Below are positions 10,215 through 16,085 of a stretch of 64,000 nucleotides of DNA, piece after piece (within the stretch, counting starts at the first letter, position 1; every line of letters begins with the position of its first letter). The position numbers were made by a program, and so were the translations under genes. This DNA is from Hymenobacter sp. YIM 151858-1 (GTDB lineage: Bacteria; Bacteroidota; Bacteroidia; Cytophagales; Hymenobacteraceae). Location of the stretch: positions 3,348,001 to 3,412,000 of the forward strand of contig NZ_CP110136.1 in assembly GCF_025979705.1 (NCBI RefSeq). Reading direction: 5' to 3'. The notes beneath the pieces are model-generated. The model did not search any database. It worked only from the letters and a program-made list of their open reading frames with translations, and was not told the origin of the DNA.

Positions 10215-13200
10215 TTACCCCAGCAACTCCTCAATATCCTCCTTGGTGAGGCTCTTGATGATGGCCTCGTCGGTGGTTATCAGGTCCGATACCAGCTGAA
10301 TTTTCCGGTTTTGCAGGGCCAGGATCTTCTCCTCCACCGTGCCCTTGGTGATGAACTTGTAGGTGAACACCGTGCGCTCCTGCCCGATGCGGTGGGCGCG
10401 GTCGACGGCTTGGGCTTCCACGGCGGGGTTCCACCACGGGTCGAGAATGAACACGTAGTCGGCGGCCGTCAGGTTCAGGCCCACGCCGCCGGCTTTCAGC
10501 GAGATGAGGAACACGCGCAGGTCCTCGTCTTTCTGAAAGCGGGCTACTTCCTTGTGCCGGTCGCGGGTGTTGCCGTCGAGGTAGGCATACTCAATCTGCT
10601 TTTCGTCGAGCACGTGGCGCACCAGCTCCAGGTGCTTCACGAACTGACTAAACACCAGCACCTTGTGCCCCTCGGCCACCACGCTCCGGATCATGCGCAC
10701 CACCTCGCGCAGCTTGCCCGATTCGGCCTCGTAGGTTTCGTCGGCCATGCGGGGGTGGTTGGCAATTTGGCGCAGCTTGGTAAGGCCCTGCAGCAGCATA
10801 AACTGGGTGCTGGCCGTGCCGTGCTCCTCAATGCTCTGCAGAATCTTGTTGCGGTAGTAGCTCTTGGTTTCCTCGTAGCACTGCTGCTGCTCGTCGGTCA
10901 TGCGGCAATAGCTCAGGTGCTCAATCTTCTCGGGCAGCTCGGTTGCCACCTGCGCTTTGTGCCTGCGCAGGATAAACGGCTTGATGAGCGTATGCAGGCG
11001 CCGCGTCTTCAGCTCGTCCTTCTCCTTCTCAATCGGCTTCAGGAACTCCTTGCGGAAGAACGCCTGCGAACCTAGGAGGCCCGGGTTGATAAACGACATC
11101 TGCGACCACAAATCCATGGTGCTGTTCTCCACGGGCGTGCCCGTGAGGATGAGCCGGTGGCGCGAGTGCAGGTGCCGCACCGCCTGCGAGGTGGTGGAGC
11201 TGGGGTTCTTGATGGCCTGCGACTCGTCGAGGATGACGTAGTCGAACTTGTAGGTTTTGAGCAGCTCGGCATCGAGGCGCACAATGCCGTACGACGTCAG
11301 AATGAGGTCGTAATCGGCAAACTGCTCCACGTTTTTGTCGCGGTAGGTGCCGGTGTAGGTCAGCACGCGCAAGCCGGGCGTAAACTTCTGGGCCTCGTTT
11401 AGCCAGTTGTAAACCAGCGAGGTAGGCATTACCAGCAACGAGGCCGCGCCGCCCGCCGCACCGCTTTCCTTGCGCTGCAATAGCATGGCCAGCGTCTGGA
11501 TGGTGTTGTGCGTCACCACGAAGTTGTCGGTAACGTACAGGCGGTCGGGCGCATCCACGGCAATGCACTGCGCAGGCATGCTGCCCACGCGCTCGACGGA
11601 TTTGATACCGCGGTAGGGCAGGTATTTGGTCTTGGGGCGGTACAGCGCCAGCTTGCGCGCCAGCCGGAAGGGCATCACATCGGGCGGCAACGACAGCGTG
11701 AGGGTGTACGCTACCATTCCGGTCCGCAGCTCGCCGGCATAGCGGTAGGTCGGGGTTTTGCTGGTACGCTTTGCCGTGCCGCCCAGTGACTGCACCAAGC
11801 TGGTAAGGCCCTCAGCCAGCTGGGCCGAGGTGGTCGTGAACTGGCATACGTCGCCGCTGGCCGATACGTAGCCGTCGGTATCCATAAGGCCCTGCAGCAA
11901 GGCCACACGCGTGGGCACGTCGTTGAACAGGTAGTCCTCCGGGATAAACTTATCCTTCGAGCCTTTTCCTTTCAGCCCTAGGTGTTTTACCTGCTGCATC
12001 AGCTGGTTGGTCCAGCCGGTGTCCTTTACAAATGCATAGTCATACGAACCCGGATTACGACGCACCCGCAAGCCTTTGGGCAAGGCTTCGGTAGCATACG
12101 CCACAATTTCGGTGTCGCCCGAAGACAGTGCAATGCTGTTCTGCCGGAAGCAACCATCGCCTAGCAACAGGCCCAGGAAATACGGATCGATGGTAACAGG
12201 CCGGGGCGCAAAGGCAACCGGCTGCACCACGGGTACAAACCATTTGGTGTTGCCGTGCTTGTCGTGCAGATCATGGCGCAGCTCGCGGAGCTCTTTCACC
12301 CGAAAACCTTGGCCGCGGTGCTTCTGCACCGGGCTTTGCACCGCCCATAGGTGTTCGGCGCAGCATTCGGCCGTGGCCCCGTCGGTAAACGTAACGCGGA
12401 AAATTTCTTTCTCGCCCTGCGGAAACACGCCCGTAATGCGCGAGCGGCCACCCTGCGCGTTAATCACTTCGTCGCCGATTTGCACTTCCCCCATAGTGGT
12501 CCAGCCCGTAGGGGTCAGTATGCGCGCATGCAGCGGCTGGGCTTTGCCCAAGCCCATATCGTCGGCCAAGCAGCCGCCAAAGTGGTACTCCTGCACAAAG
12601 TGCAGCCAGTTGTAGCCGGCTTGCTGGTAGGGGCGCAGGGCGCCATTAAAGCCGGCAGGCAGGGGCCGGTCTTCCACGGCCTCGAAGCCGCGCAGGCGCT
12701 CCAGCTTGCGGCTCATGGTTACGGTGGCGAGGTTACCGTTCTCCAGGTCCGAAACCAGCGCTACGTGGTGCTTTTTGAGCGTGAGCGAGTGGTGGTGCTC
12801 CTCCGAGAAGGCAAACAGCTCGAGGTACTGCGTAAACCACTCCTCCGGAATAATGGCAATCTGGCCGTTGGGCAGCTTAAACTCGTGGCGCTTCTGCAGG
12901 ATGTAGGGCCGCAGCTTCACGAAGGGTATTTCGAACTCGCCGAAGCGCACCGTGCCGTGGATGTCGAACCAGTCGTTGTTCTCGGTGATGCCCACGTTCA
13001 CCGTTACCGTGCCGATAAAGTAGTCCTTACCCGAGGTGCTGCCTTGCTGCACCGTAAAACCTAGGCGGGCCAGTTCCTCGGCGTGCGAGTGCAGCCACTT
13101 AAAGGCGGTGGCTTTCTCGAGCACGGCGCGGCCGTTGCGCACCTCCAGGGCGCGGTCTTGCAGCTCCCGGATAAAGTTCTGCTCGTTTTCCAAGTCCCGG

Positions 13201-14159
13201 ATCAGGCGGTGGAACACGTACGAGTCCGACGTCTTCTCCAGCTTCACGCTCACGCGCTTATCGTGGTTGCGCACGATATGGTCGCCGTACTGGAAAGCAA
13301 TGTCGAAATGAATCTGCTCGGCGTTGGGGTCCGTGTCGTACATCGTGCCGCCGTGCCCCGGCACATCCGAAAAGATGAGGTGCGGCTTGGCCTGGTAGCG
13401 CTCCGAGCGAATATCGAACCCGCGGGCATGCACGTCGAACGACTCTACCAGGGGCGCCACAAAGCGCTGGTAGTAGCTGTCCTCCACCTGCCTAGGTATC
13501 ACGATGAATTTCTTGTTGAGGAAGGGCTGCAGCTTCTTGCCGTCAACCTCGTTGCGGAAGTTGTGGAGCACTCCATCGAGCAGCATCCAGGCGGGCTGGC
13601 AGCACACCATCACGGCGTCGCGCTGCTGAAAGTCGAGCCGCTGGCCGCGGTACTGGATGGTGGGGAAATAGTGCGTGTTTTCGGGGTTGCGGCGAAAGTG
13701 GAACAGCACCGAAGCCGGCTCGGGCGCTACCGAAATTTCCTTCCAGGTAGGCTCGCCGTCTTTGCCCATGATAAACACGTGCTTGCCGTGCAGCCCGTCG
13801 AGCAGCTGGCCCATGCGTTGCTGCACGTACTGGCAAATGCGCTCCTGCAGACCTTTGTCGCCCTTCTCGGGGTCGTAAATCTTCAGGAAGAAATCGGCCG
13901 GGGTCGTTTTTTTCGGCCAGAATTCTTTGATGACGGCGTCCTGCTGAATTTGGTCGGTCAGGGCTATCAGCTCGAAGTCGTTAGCGTCGAGGCCGTCGGC
14001 GAATTCGGCCGCGTTCATGGCCGAAATGTTCTGGTGCTGCAGGGTCAGCTGCCCCTTAGCATTGCGCTGAACCACGTAGGATTCAAACAGATATCCCAGG
14101 TACTCGTGCTCAAAGAGCGAGTACACTATTTGGAAAGGCTGTGAAGTAGAAACCTTCAT
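10215..14159 (-). CDS. SNF2-family DEAD/DEAH helicase interrupted by an intein
   Basis: The 1314-residue precursor is a SNF2/Swi2 ATPase of 968 residues carrying a 346-residue intein (residues 540-885). The N-terminal ~500 residues are an accessory region. Helicase motif I, DDMGLGK...T, is split by the intein after Lys539. Motif II is DESQ (978-981), motif III LTGTP (1005-1009), motif V LKAGGVGLNLT, and motif VI DRAHRIGQ (1253-1260). SNF2 proteins use ATP to translocate on DNA and remodel protein-DNA complexes; the bacterial roles are poorly defined. Until the intein is removed the Walker A motif is broken, so the precursor should be inactive. The upstream 14195-14231 region carries two palindromes in AT-rich DNA. 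There is no frameshift, and reading continues cleanly across both junctions. Confidence 0.93.
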   Translation of the reverse strand: MKVSTSQPFQIVYSLFEHEYLGYLFESYVVQRNAKGQLTLQHQNISAMNAAEFADGLDANDFELIALTDQIQQDAVIKEFWPKKTTPADFFLKIYDPEKGDKGLQERICQYVQQRMGQLLDGLHGKHVFIMGKDGEPTWKEISVAPEPASVLFHFRRNPENTHYFPTIQYRGQRLDFQQRDAVMVCCQPAWMLLDGVLHNFRNEVDGKKLQPFLNKKFIVIPRQVEDSYYQRFVAPLVESFDVHARGFDIRSERYQAKPHLIFSDVPGHGGTMYDTDPNAEQIHFDIAFQYGDHIVRNHDKRVSVKLEKTSDSYVFHRLIRDLENEQNFIRELQDRALEVRNGRAVLEKATAFKWLHSHAEELARLGFTVQQGSTSGKDYFIGTVTVNVGITENNDWFDIHGTVRFGEFEIPFVKLRPYILQKRHEFKLPNGQIAIIPEEWFTQYLELFAFSEEHHHSLTLKKHHVALVSDLENGNLATVTMSRKLERLRGFEAVEDRPLPAGFNGALRPYQQAGYNWLHFVQEYHFGGCLADDMGLGKAQPLHARILTPTGWTTMGEVQIGDEVINAQGGRSRITGVFPQGEKEIFRVTFTDGATAECCAEHLWAVQSPVQKHRGQGFRVKELRELRHDLHDKHGNTKWFVPVVQPVAFAPRPVTIDPYFLGLLLGDGCFRQNSIALSSGDTEIVAYATEALPKGLRVRRNPGSYDYAFVKDTGWTNQLMQQVKHLGLKGKGSKDKFIPEDYLFNDVPTRVALLQGLMDTDGYVSASGDVCQFTTTSAQLAEGLTSLVQSLGGTAKRTSKTPTYRYAGELRTGMVAYTLTLSLPPDVMPFRLARKLALYRPKTKYLPYRGIKSVERVGSMPAQCIAVDAPDRLYVTDNFVVTHNTIQTLAMLLQRKESGAAGGAASLLVMPTSLVYNWLNEAQKFTPGLRVLTYTGTYRDKNVEQFADYDLILTSYGIVRLDAELLKTYKFDYVILDESQAIKNPSSTTSQAVRHLHSRHRLILTGTPVENSTMDLWSQMSFINPGLLGSQAFFRKEFLKPIEKEKDELKTRRLHTLIKPFILRRHKAQVATELPEKIEHLSYCRMTDEQQQCYEETKSYYRNKILQSIEEHGTASTQFMLLQGLTKLRQIANHPRMADETYEAESGKLREVVRMIRSVVAEGHKVLVFSQFVKHLELVRHVLDEKQIEYAYLDGNTRDRHKEVARFQKDEDLRVFLISLKAGGVGLNLTAADYVFILDPWWNPAVEAQAVDRAHRIGQERTVFTYKFITKGTVEEKILALQNRKIQLVSDLITTDEAIIKSLTKEDIEELLG
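11505..12542 (-). mobile_element. Class 3 intein with LAGLIDADG homing endonuclease in SNF2
   Basis: This in-frame insertion encodes residues 540-885 of the SNF2 precursor. It starts with Ala instead of Cys/Ser and ends THN followed by Thr of the extein. Block A is LHARILTPTGWTTMGEVQIG. Block B contains CCAEHLW, with His603 and Trp605. Two endonuclease motifs, LGLLLGDG (662-669) and LQGLMDTDG (755-763), both retain an acidic residue. Block F is PAQCIAVDAP with Cys865 where most inteins have Asp, and block G is FVVTHN with Thr883. Trp, Cys and Thr at these places form the WCT signature of class 3 inteins, in which the block F Cys makes the first attack. Class 3 was described partly from the Deinococcus radiodurans Snf2 intein. 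Confidence 0.93.
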
Positions 14160-15596: not shown

Positions 15597-16085
15597 CTTA
15601 GTTTAGGAGTTAGCGAGTTTGGGAGTTAAAGCGTTTTCGGTGGGCGTGGCACCCCCTTTACGCTCGGCAGTAGCATGGGCGCTTTTACGAATTTTGGCAA
15701 GAACGGACACAATTTCGTGGGCTTCCTGCTGCAATTCTTTCAAGCGCTCGGCGGGCAGCAATTCTGCTTCGGCAAGTAGTTCGAGCCAAAACAACGACTC
15801 GTCGGCCTCCTCCAAAGCTACGCCTACTTTGGCCACAAACTCCTTGGCCGAGCGCGCCCGGCAAGCGGCCCGGTAATTGGCCGCCGTGGAGGTAGCTGCC
15901 CGCAGCAGCTGCTTGCCCACCACCTGCTCCACGGCCGAGGTAGGCAACACCTTGTACAGCCGGATTACGCGCAGGGCAAACGCTTTGGTGCGGGCTTTGA
16001 ACTGCTCGGCAAACTCAAAGTTGTTCATAACGGCCGAAGCATAAATAACTCGTTAACTCACAACCTTTTAACTCACTAACTAAAT
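15597..16085. repeat. Inverted family D arms flanking an S23-like gene
   Basis: A left arm (15599-15628, TTTAGGAGTTAGCGAGTTTG and following bases) and a right arm (16046-16084, TTAACTCACAACCTTTTAAC and following bases) are imperfectly complementary and enclose the gene 15603-16028. The left arm encodes the last residues of that protein (LTPKLANS). Related arms without a gene occur at 20757-20890. The arrangement resembles a gene between the stem arms of an rRNA intervening sequence. Confidence 0.65.
15603..16028 (-). CDS. Four-helix-bundle protein, S23/IVS family
   Basis: A 141-residue helical protein of the family first seen in 23S rRNA intervening sequences (TIGR02436-type). Hallmarks are LYKVLPTSAVEQVVGKQLLR, AATSTAANYRAACRARS and FVAKVGVALEEADESLFWLE. 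The fold is shared with Avd of diversity-generating retroelements; biochemical function is unknown. It is not in an rRNA gene here but between a methyltransferase and lolE, flanked on both sides by inverted low-complexity arms. The C-terminus reads into the left arm. A second family member is at 38675-39034. Confidence 0.88.
   Translation of the reverse strand: MNNFEFAEQFKARTKAFALRVIRLYKVLPTSAVEQVVGKQLLRAATSTAANYRAACRARSAKEFVAKVGVALEEADESLFWLELLAEAELLPAERLKELQQEAHEIVSVLAKIRKSAHATAERKGGATPTENALTPKLANS

Follow-up and report, generated by a model that had tools for sequence, protein, structure and literature searches.

A predicted class 3 intein with a LAGLIDADG endonuclease in the Walker A motif of a Hymenobacter SNF2 helicase

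How can an intervening protein segment be removed when it begins with Ala and lacks the usual N-terminal nucleophile, and how did it come to interrupt the Walker A motif of a helicase? Both questions are raised by a gene of Hymenobacter sp. YIM 151858-1, which we analyzed within a window of 64,000 nucleotides (contig NZ_CP110136.1, positions 3,348,001 to 3,412,000; all positions given here are those of this whole stretch). The reading frame of the gene stays open across 1314 codons and encodes an SNF2-family helicase with the Pfam domains SNF2_assoc (residues 188-450), SNF2-rel_dom (best stretch 886-1138) and Helicase_C (1152-1259). The insertion point in the Walker A motif (DMGLGK^TIQT) falls between Lys and Thr, and the two junctions read LADDMGLGK^AQPLHA...VVTHN^TIQTLA. 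On translation, the extent of the insert (residues 540-885) and the positions of Ala540, Trp605, Cys865 and Thr883, all proposed in an earlier sequence-only reading, proved exact to the base. The stretches HLW, AQCIAV and VVTHN, which contain Trp605, Cys865 and Thr883, respectively, occupy 12345-12353, 11556-11573 and 11505-11519. The features of the gene are collected in Table 1.

Table 1. Positions within the window of the helicase gene, the predicted intein and its key residues
Feature	Position	Strand	Basis or remark
SNF2-family helicase gene interrupted by intein, 1314 aa	10215-14159	-	ORF and Pfam
N-extein, residues 1-539, ending DMGLGK	12543-14159	-	Translation and empty-site relatives
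Predicted class 3 intein (346 aa, helicase residues 540-885) containing a LAGLIDADG endonuclease	11505-12542	-	
C-extein, residues 886-1314 and stop	10215-11504	-	Translation, Pfam
Ala1 (= Ala540), without N-terminal nucleophile	12540-12542	-	Invariant in 15/15 family inteins
Cys60-Cys61	12360-12365	-	Cys61 at position B:7, with the block B His three residues further on
His64, block B position 10	12351-12353	-	Corresponds by homology to triad residue His65 of MchDnaB1; 69/69
Trp66 (= Trp605), the WCT Trp at block B position 12	12345-12347	-	69/69
LAGLIDADG motif 1 (YFLGLLLGDG), Asp129	12153-12182	-	
LAGLIDADG motif 2 (LLQGLMDTDG), Asp223	11871-11900	-	Pfam LAGLIDADG_3 at 752-803
Cys326 (= Cys865) at block F position 4, expected to be the first nucleophile	11565-11567	-	69/69
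Thr344-His345-Asn346, block G; Thr344 = Thr883	11505-11513	-	69/69
Thr+1, first residue of the C-extein and predicted second nucleophile	11502-11504	-	

Two further annotations concern the surroundings. ARAGORN reports a tRNA-Arg at 11150-11228 (+), on the opposite strand within the helicase gene, which is probably a false positive. A gene for a 23S rRNA intervening-sequence protein (PF05635) lies at 15603-16028 (-), between the genes of an FtsX-like permease and a methyltransferase.

Class 3 inteins are defined, in excerpts of PMC3196547 and PMC5050341, by the lack of an N-terminal nucleophile together with Trp at block B position 12 (B:12), Cys at F:4 and Thr at G:5. The insert shows this combination, with Ala1 rather than Ser, Cys or Thr at its start and with Trp, Cys and Thr at the three block positions. 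It also has what is expected of an intein in general: it lies in frame, ends in His-Asn, is followed by Thr+1, adopts a Hint fold in the predicted model and is missing from empty alleles elsewhere. A profile of 13 sequences brought Trp66, Cys326 and Thr344-His-Asn into register with the class 3 inteins 6rix and 6bs8, whose Cys at the position of Cys326 is catalytic according to portions of PMC7664689 and PMC6195587. The same profile also aligned with 6riy, in which the Asn is mutated, and with 6riz, which is gp41-1 carrying the mutations C1A, F65W and D107C and engineered towards class 3. The class 3 assignment made by the sequence-only reading, which was to be given up if Cys865 failed to align with block F position 4, is borne out by the sequence, the profile alignment and the predicted fold; we checked the position of this residue and it aligns there.

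Among the 15 inteins found at this site in the bacterial family of the window (hereafter, the family inteins), A1, W66, C326, T344, H345 and N346 do not vary. Across a wider alignment of 69 sequences, H64, W66, C326, T344, H345 and N346 are identical in all 69, window included, and position 1 is occupied by Ala in 63, by a gap in five and by Ser in one. This alignment is composed of the window's intein, 42 of the best 80 of 553 genome-contig loci and 26 of 72 viral loci, with none of 22 further loci and after removal by hand of near copies and partial matches. Its marker invariance is partly by construction, because the patterns used to find the viral loci (CCA[ED]HLW and AQCI[SA]VDA) contain marker residues. 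The patterns used on genome contigs were free of W66, C326 and T344, and the best 80 of the 553 loci all have HxW, Cys and THN. Pooling these 80 with the 72 viral and the 22 further loci gave 175 reading frames from 174 loci, 162 of which span the intein nearly end to end. All 162 end in THN, with Thr (141) or Ser (21) at +1, and the remaining 13 are partial or distant, including one (L288) that starts with Cys.

The AlphaFold2 model of the intein, derived from the wider alignment, has a mean pLDDT of 96.2 and a pTM of 0.93. Its top Foldseek match is PI-SceI (1ef0; TMq 0.76, identity 18%), a class 1 intein with a LAGLIDADG endonuclease that shares the overall two-domain architecture of the window's intein but belongs to a different splicing class. 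Class 3 inteins were also matched, with TMt values reaching 0.82 for 6rix and 0.86 for 6bs8. Pfam recognized LAGLIDADG_3 and Hom_end within the insert; no Pfam Hint model matched at E-values up to 1, and the Hint fold is that of the predicted model. The endonuclease part has the predicted LAGLIDADG fold and two motifs with acidic residues, both intact in the window's intein. These residues, Asp129 (kept in 15/15 family inteins and 65/69 sequences of the wider alignment) and Asp223 (14/15 and 67/69), we take to be the catalytic Asp of LAGLIDADG enzymes. Sequence and model together identify the insert as a full-length class 3 intein, in which a predicted Hint domain hosts a LAGLIDADG homing endonuclease.

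Ala in first position occurs in class 2 inteins as well, as stated in a section of PMC4031507, and the insert might on this ground be taken for an intein of the KlbA type. In the same source, however, class 2 inteins belong to KlbA orthologues and have Ser at G:6 together with Cys+1, whereas the window's intein has His345 at G:6, Thr+1, the full WCT set and an SNF2 host; we consider a class 2 identity very unlikely. It is also conceivable that the intein has decayed and lost splicing, as shown for a class 3 pseudogene of Arthrobacter in part of PMC3196547. Such a fate appears highly improbable here: all checked catalytic positions are intact, the structure is modeled with confidence, and the frame stays open through a helicase whose C-extein is detected in 203 of the 204 family genomes at an E-value of 1e-150. 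In seven chosen pairs, dN/dS ranges from 0.05 to 0.16 in the splicing part and from 0.10 to 0.28 in the endonuclease part, and these low values indicate that both parts are under constraint. Taken as a whole, the locus is very probably best explained by a class 3 intein that would splice from its host protein and home into empty alleles.

How splicing would proceed can be proposed by homology to the M. chimaera intein, in which Cys124, His65 and Thr143 form a protease-like triad and Trp67 is part of the motif (excerpts of PMC7664689). Cys326 would attack the Lys-Ala1 bond, with His64 and Thr344 completing a protease-like triad and Trp66 supporting it. The N-extein would then be transferred to Thr+1, Asn346 would cyclise and the two exteins would be ligated, restoring GKT. 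Because the insert splits GKT, the unspliced helicase precursor should be unable to use ATP and is predicted to remain so until spliced. The endonuclease would cut intein-free alleles within the conserved DNA that encodes the Walker A motif, and repair of the cut allele would copy the intein in. A different state of the endonuclease can be seen in genome G076, whose intein (L011/L099) reads DAGG in the second LAGLIDADG motif, without Asp223, and retains intact splicing residues; it possibly represents an endonuclease-dead stage of the homing cycle.

Inteins of this kind are ordinary and already known, and the copy in the window is an additional member. By 2020, 1701 class 3 inteins had been counted in nr, 82.5% of them with LAGLIDADG motifs (excerpt of PMC7891396), and helicases are among the hosts named in portions of PMC4031507. 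The Deinococcus radiodurans Snf2 intein (Brace et al. 2010), reported as class 3 in sections of PMC3196547, PMC4031507 and PMC7664689, resembles the window's intein in class and in its Snf2-named host, going by its description; no Deinococcus title appears among the best 80 of the 553 genome-contig loci. The DnaB1 inteins of M. chimaera and M. smegmatis (6rix, 6riy and 6bs8) share the fold of the window's model in the Foldseek comparison and have their Trp, Cys, Thr, His and Asn in register with it, except for the mutated Asn of 6riy. Their crystallised chains, however, measure 139-146 residues, as compared to 346 here. According to part of PMC6195587, M. smegmatis DnaBi1 has no endonuclease domain, DxxH in block B and Ser+1, whereas the window's intein has CxxH and Thr+1. 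NCBIfam holds a related SNF2 helicase family named 'intein-prone' (NF058636), and the window's protein scores below its cut-off (61.9 of 550 bits). In the open-licence PMC literature, a few narrow queries ('Bacteroidetes', 'Hymenobacter') found no description of a class 3 intein in Bacteroidota.

The Cys of the CxxH motif deserves a closer look. Cys60 and Cys61 lie shortly before His64-Leu-Trp66 and are invariant in all 15 family inteins. In the block numbering taken from excerpts of PMC4031507 and PMC3196547, Cys61 is B:7, which is Thr in the class 1 scheme (portion of PMC4031507) and Asp in M. smegmatis DnaBi1 (portion of PMC6195587). In 79 distinct loci among the best 80 of the 553, found with patterns that did not ask for Cys at B:7, Asp occupies this position 37 times, Cys 32 times, Thr seven times and Ser three times. 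Of 65 distinct viral loci, 47 have Cys at B:7, 13 have Asp, four have Gly and one has Ser, a distribution biased by one search pattern that contained CC. In M. smegmatis DnaB, a disulfide between Cys48 and Cys118 holds the precursor unspliced under oxidation, as described in part of PMC6195587. By analogy, a disulfide between Cys61 (or Cys60) and Cys326 might turn the window's intein into a redox switch on the helicase, keeping the precursor unspliced, and hence blind to ATP, under oxidation; different from the M. smegmatis case, the partner Cys would here lie inside a splicing block. We regard such a switch as doubtful, and Cys61 may equally just aid catalysis. If the Cys at B:7 were a redox lock, it would provide a second route, within the splicing block, to redox-controlled class 3 splicing.

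We then asked how the intein is distributed. Of 204 family genomes, 15 carry an SNF2 intein: the window's own and 14 of the 120 in genus g4 (Hymenobacter). None was found in the seven other genomes of the window's genus (g1), nor in the 76 genomes of four other genera of the family. The 14 g4 inteins (for example, those of H. citatus, H. aerophilus and H. glacialis) share gene, site and marker residues with the window's intein and are 69-76% identical to it; eight of the g4 carriers are named among the best 80 of the 553 loci, and all eight are Hymenobacter. Parsing of 47 genes at the site, with the empty ones partly hand-picked, returned 29 uninterrupted alleles (ADDMGLGK followed by T or S), 15 filled alleles and three unmatched ones. 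In one of the three, G432, the intein occupies a different host gene; in the other two, G103 and G024, the site is empty and the frame is split. In these two (L134 and L135, respectively) the SNF2 gene comes as two frames that are split 5' of the empty Walker A site, owing either to a sequencing error or to a true break. No dead intein was seen in G103, G024 or G028, all of which have an empty site, the frame of G028 being short. An apparent second intein in G021 was discarded, as its 1689-residue frame is merely upstream read-through before the start.

Genomes of the same Hymenobacter type (g4) host a second intein family, in the DnaB helicase (L018-L032), where 15 out of 15 end in THN^TAFVVSAMRNAA. 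The DnaB inteins L018 and L139, examined over their full length, are inserted after GMGK, begin with Cys and match the window's intein over its later part at approximately 33% identity; from their sequence, these two look like class 1.

Outside the family, a sample of 395 genomes of the phylum returned nine matches at 1e-10. Besides the window's own, two of them cover residues 1-346: G432 (52% identity), where the intein sits with the junction GVGKGR^A in a different helicase-like protein, presumably strawberry-notch-like, and G204 (40%), where it lies in a frame of 4259 residues. G432 is a distant Bacteroidota genome, and its intein (L132) is nearly the same as L171 from an 'uncultured bacterium' contig, possibly owing to a phage, a mobile element or contamination. 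Among phage records, 787 of 50,697 match, 538 of them over at least 80% of the query, and the listed matches share 35-41% identity with the window's intein; among plasmid records, 43 of 72,556 match, with a best identity of 43%. Among the best 80 of the 553 genome-contig loci, the inteins from outside the family are 39-48% identical to it. Class 3-type inteins that occupy nucleotide-binding loops of phage and bacterial proteins, such as DnaB, terminases and SNF2-like helicases, bear the same chemistry markers; identity to the window's intein is 26-52%, and many of the hosts are not SNF2.

The scattered distribution could result from vertical descent from a family ancestor, with many losses and no horizontal homing. 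In a wide tree of 84 inteins built with a quick method, the 15 family inteins indeed form one clade (SH-aLRT 100), and distances among inteins correlate with those among exteins (Spearman coefficients of 0.48 for protein identity and 0.65 at four-fold sites). Against this explanation, however, mapping intein presence onto an extein tree built by FastTree from 102 rows (g1 and g4), which leaves out 26 g4 genomes devoid of SNF2 inteins, requires 15 changes for 15 carriers, and starred branches alone force at least 12. When labels are shuffled on this tree, the mean is 14.2-14.3 changes and 500 out of 500 shuffles are as low; intein presence therefore shows no clustering on the extein tree. On a smaller and more careful tree with 29 empty alleles, 11 changes are needed, and 87-93 of 500 shuffles are as low. 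Intein and extein trees are also in conflict: G085 and G022 have exteins 98% identical and inteins 78% identical, the inteins reject the two as sisters (AU P-value 8.6e-5), and the intein sister pair G022 and G076 is rejected by the exteins (AU P-value 1.7e-5); the pairs put to the test were picked with the trees already in view. Finally, the intein is exactly absent from all seven relatives of the window's genus, whose C-exteins are 94-99% identical to the window's. We consider purely vertical descent unlikely. Scattered presence and tree conflict support repeated homing, and they agree, within the family, with the horizontal spread of one homing lineage put forward by the sequence-only reading; in several lines, precise loss of the intein instead of gain is possible. 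Beyond the family this proposal holds more loosely, in that the window's intein is one member of a large family spread over nucleotide-binding loops of phage and bacterial proteins. In the wide tree, the neighbours of the family clade are helicase inteins of Chloroflexota, Acidobacteriota and Eremiobacterota and viral helicase inteins, deeper branches being weak. The SNF2-hosted inteins from outside the family (L158, L160, L169 and L172, with the host assigned by flank similarity in all four and by a Pfam SNF2 domain in L158 and L160) do not form one clade.

The sequence-only reading had offered convergent use of the same target as an alternative, and the same kind of site is in fact used in many different proteins, with GK directly preceding the insert in 130 of the 162 near full-length relatives. 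Homology nevertheless extends over the whole 346 residues to inteins of other families, phyla and phages, and the LAGLIDADG architecture is common to them. Since this homology takes in the splicing domain and the endonuclease along their full length, it is scarcely credible that class 3 chemistry arose independently at the same target here and elsewhere.

As for the window's own copy, the wide tree sets it apart from a group made up of the other 14 (support 94, not starred), and the family tree gives it no resolved position. Its extein is 98% identical to that of the intein-free genome G201, and the nearest known intein is only 76% identical; the donor was not found. This difference makes recent acquisition from an unsampled donor the most likely origin of the copy. 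We found no co-conversion footprint around the site, which, like the moderate correlation of intein and extein distances, weighs against homing: within 60 codons, synonymous divergence is 1.16-fold that of the rest of the gene between intein-bearing and empty alleles and 1.19-fold between empty alleles (15 and 30 matched pairs, respectively; the g6 control had one usable pair). Four-fold-site divergence within these 60 codons is raised approximately 1.2-fold between empty alleles too, in both g1 and g4. The raised raw divergence near the site in the window's gene was rejected as a sign of homing, as two empty relatives show the same between themselves.

The family thus offers a natural series in which one gene, at one site, is filled in 15 carriers and empty in many closely related alleles, all within one bacterial family, and in which turnover is fast enough that intein presence shows no phylogenetic signal. 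The cycle of intein homing, made of gain, spread and loss, therefore becomes directly measurable in this series.
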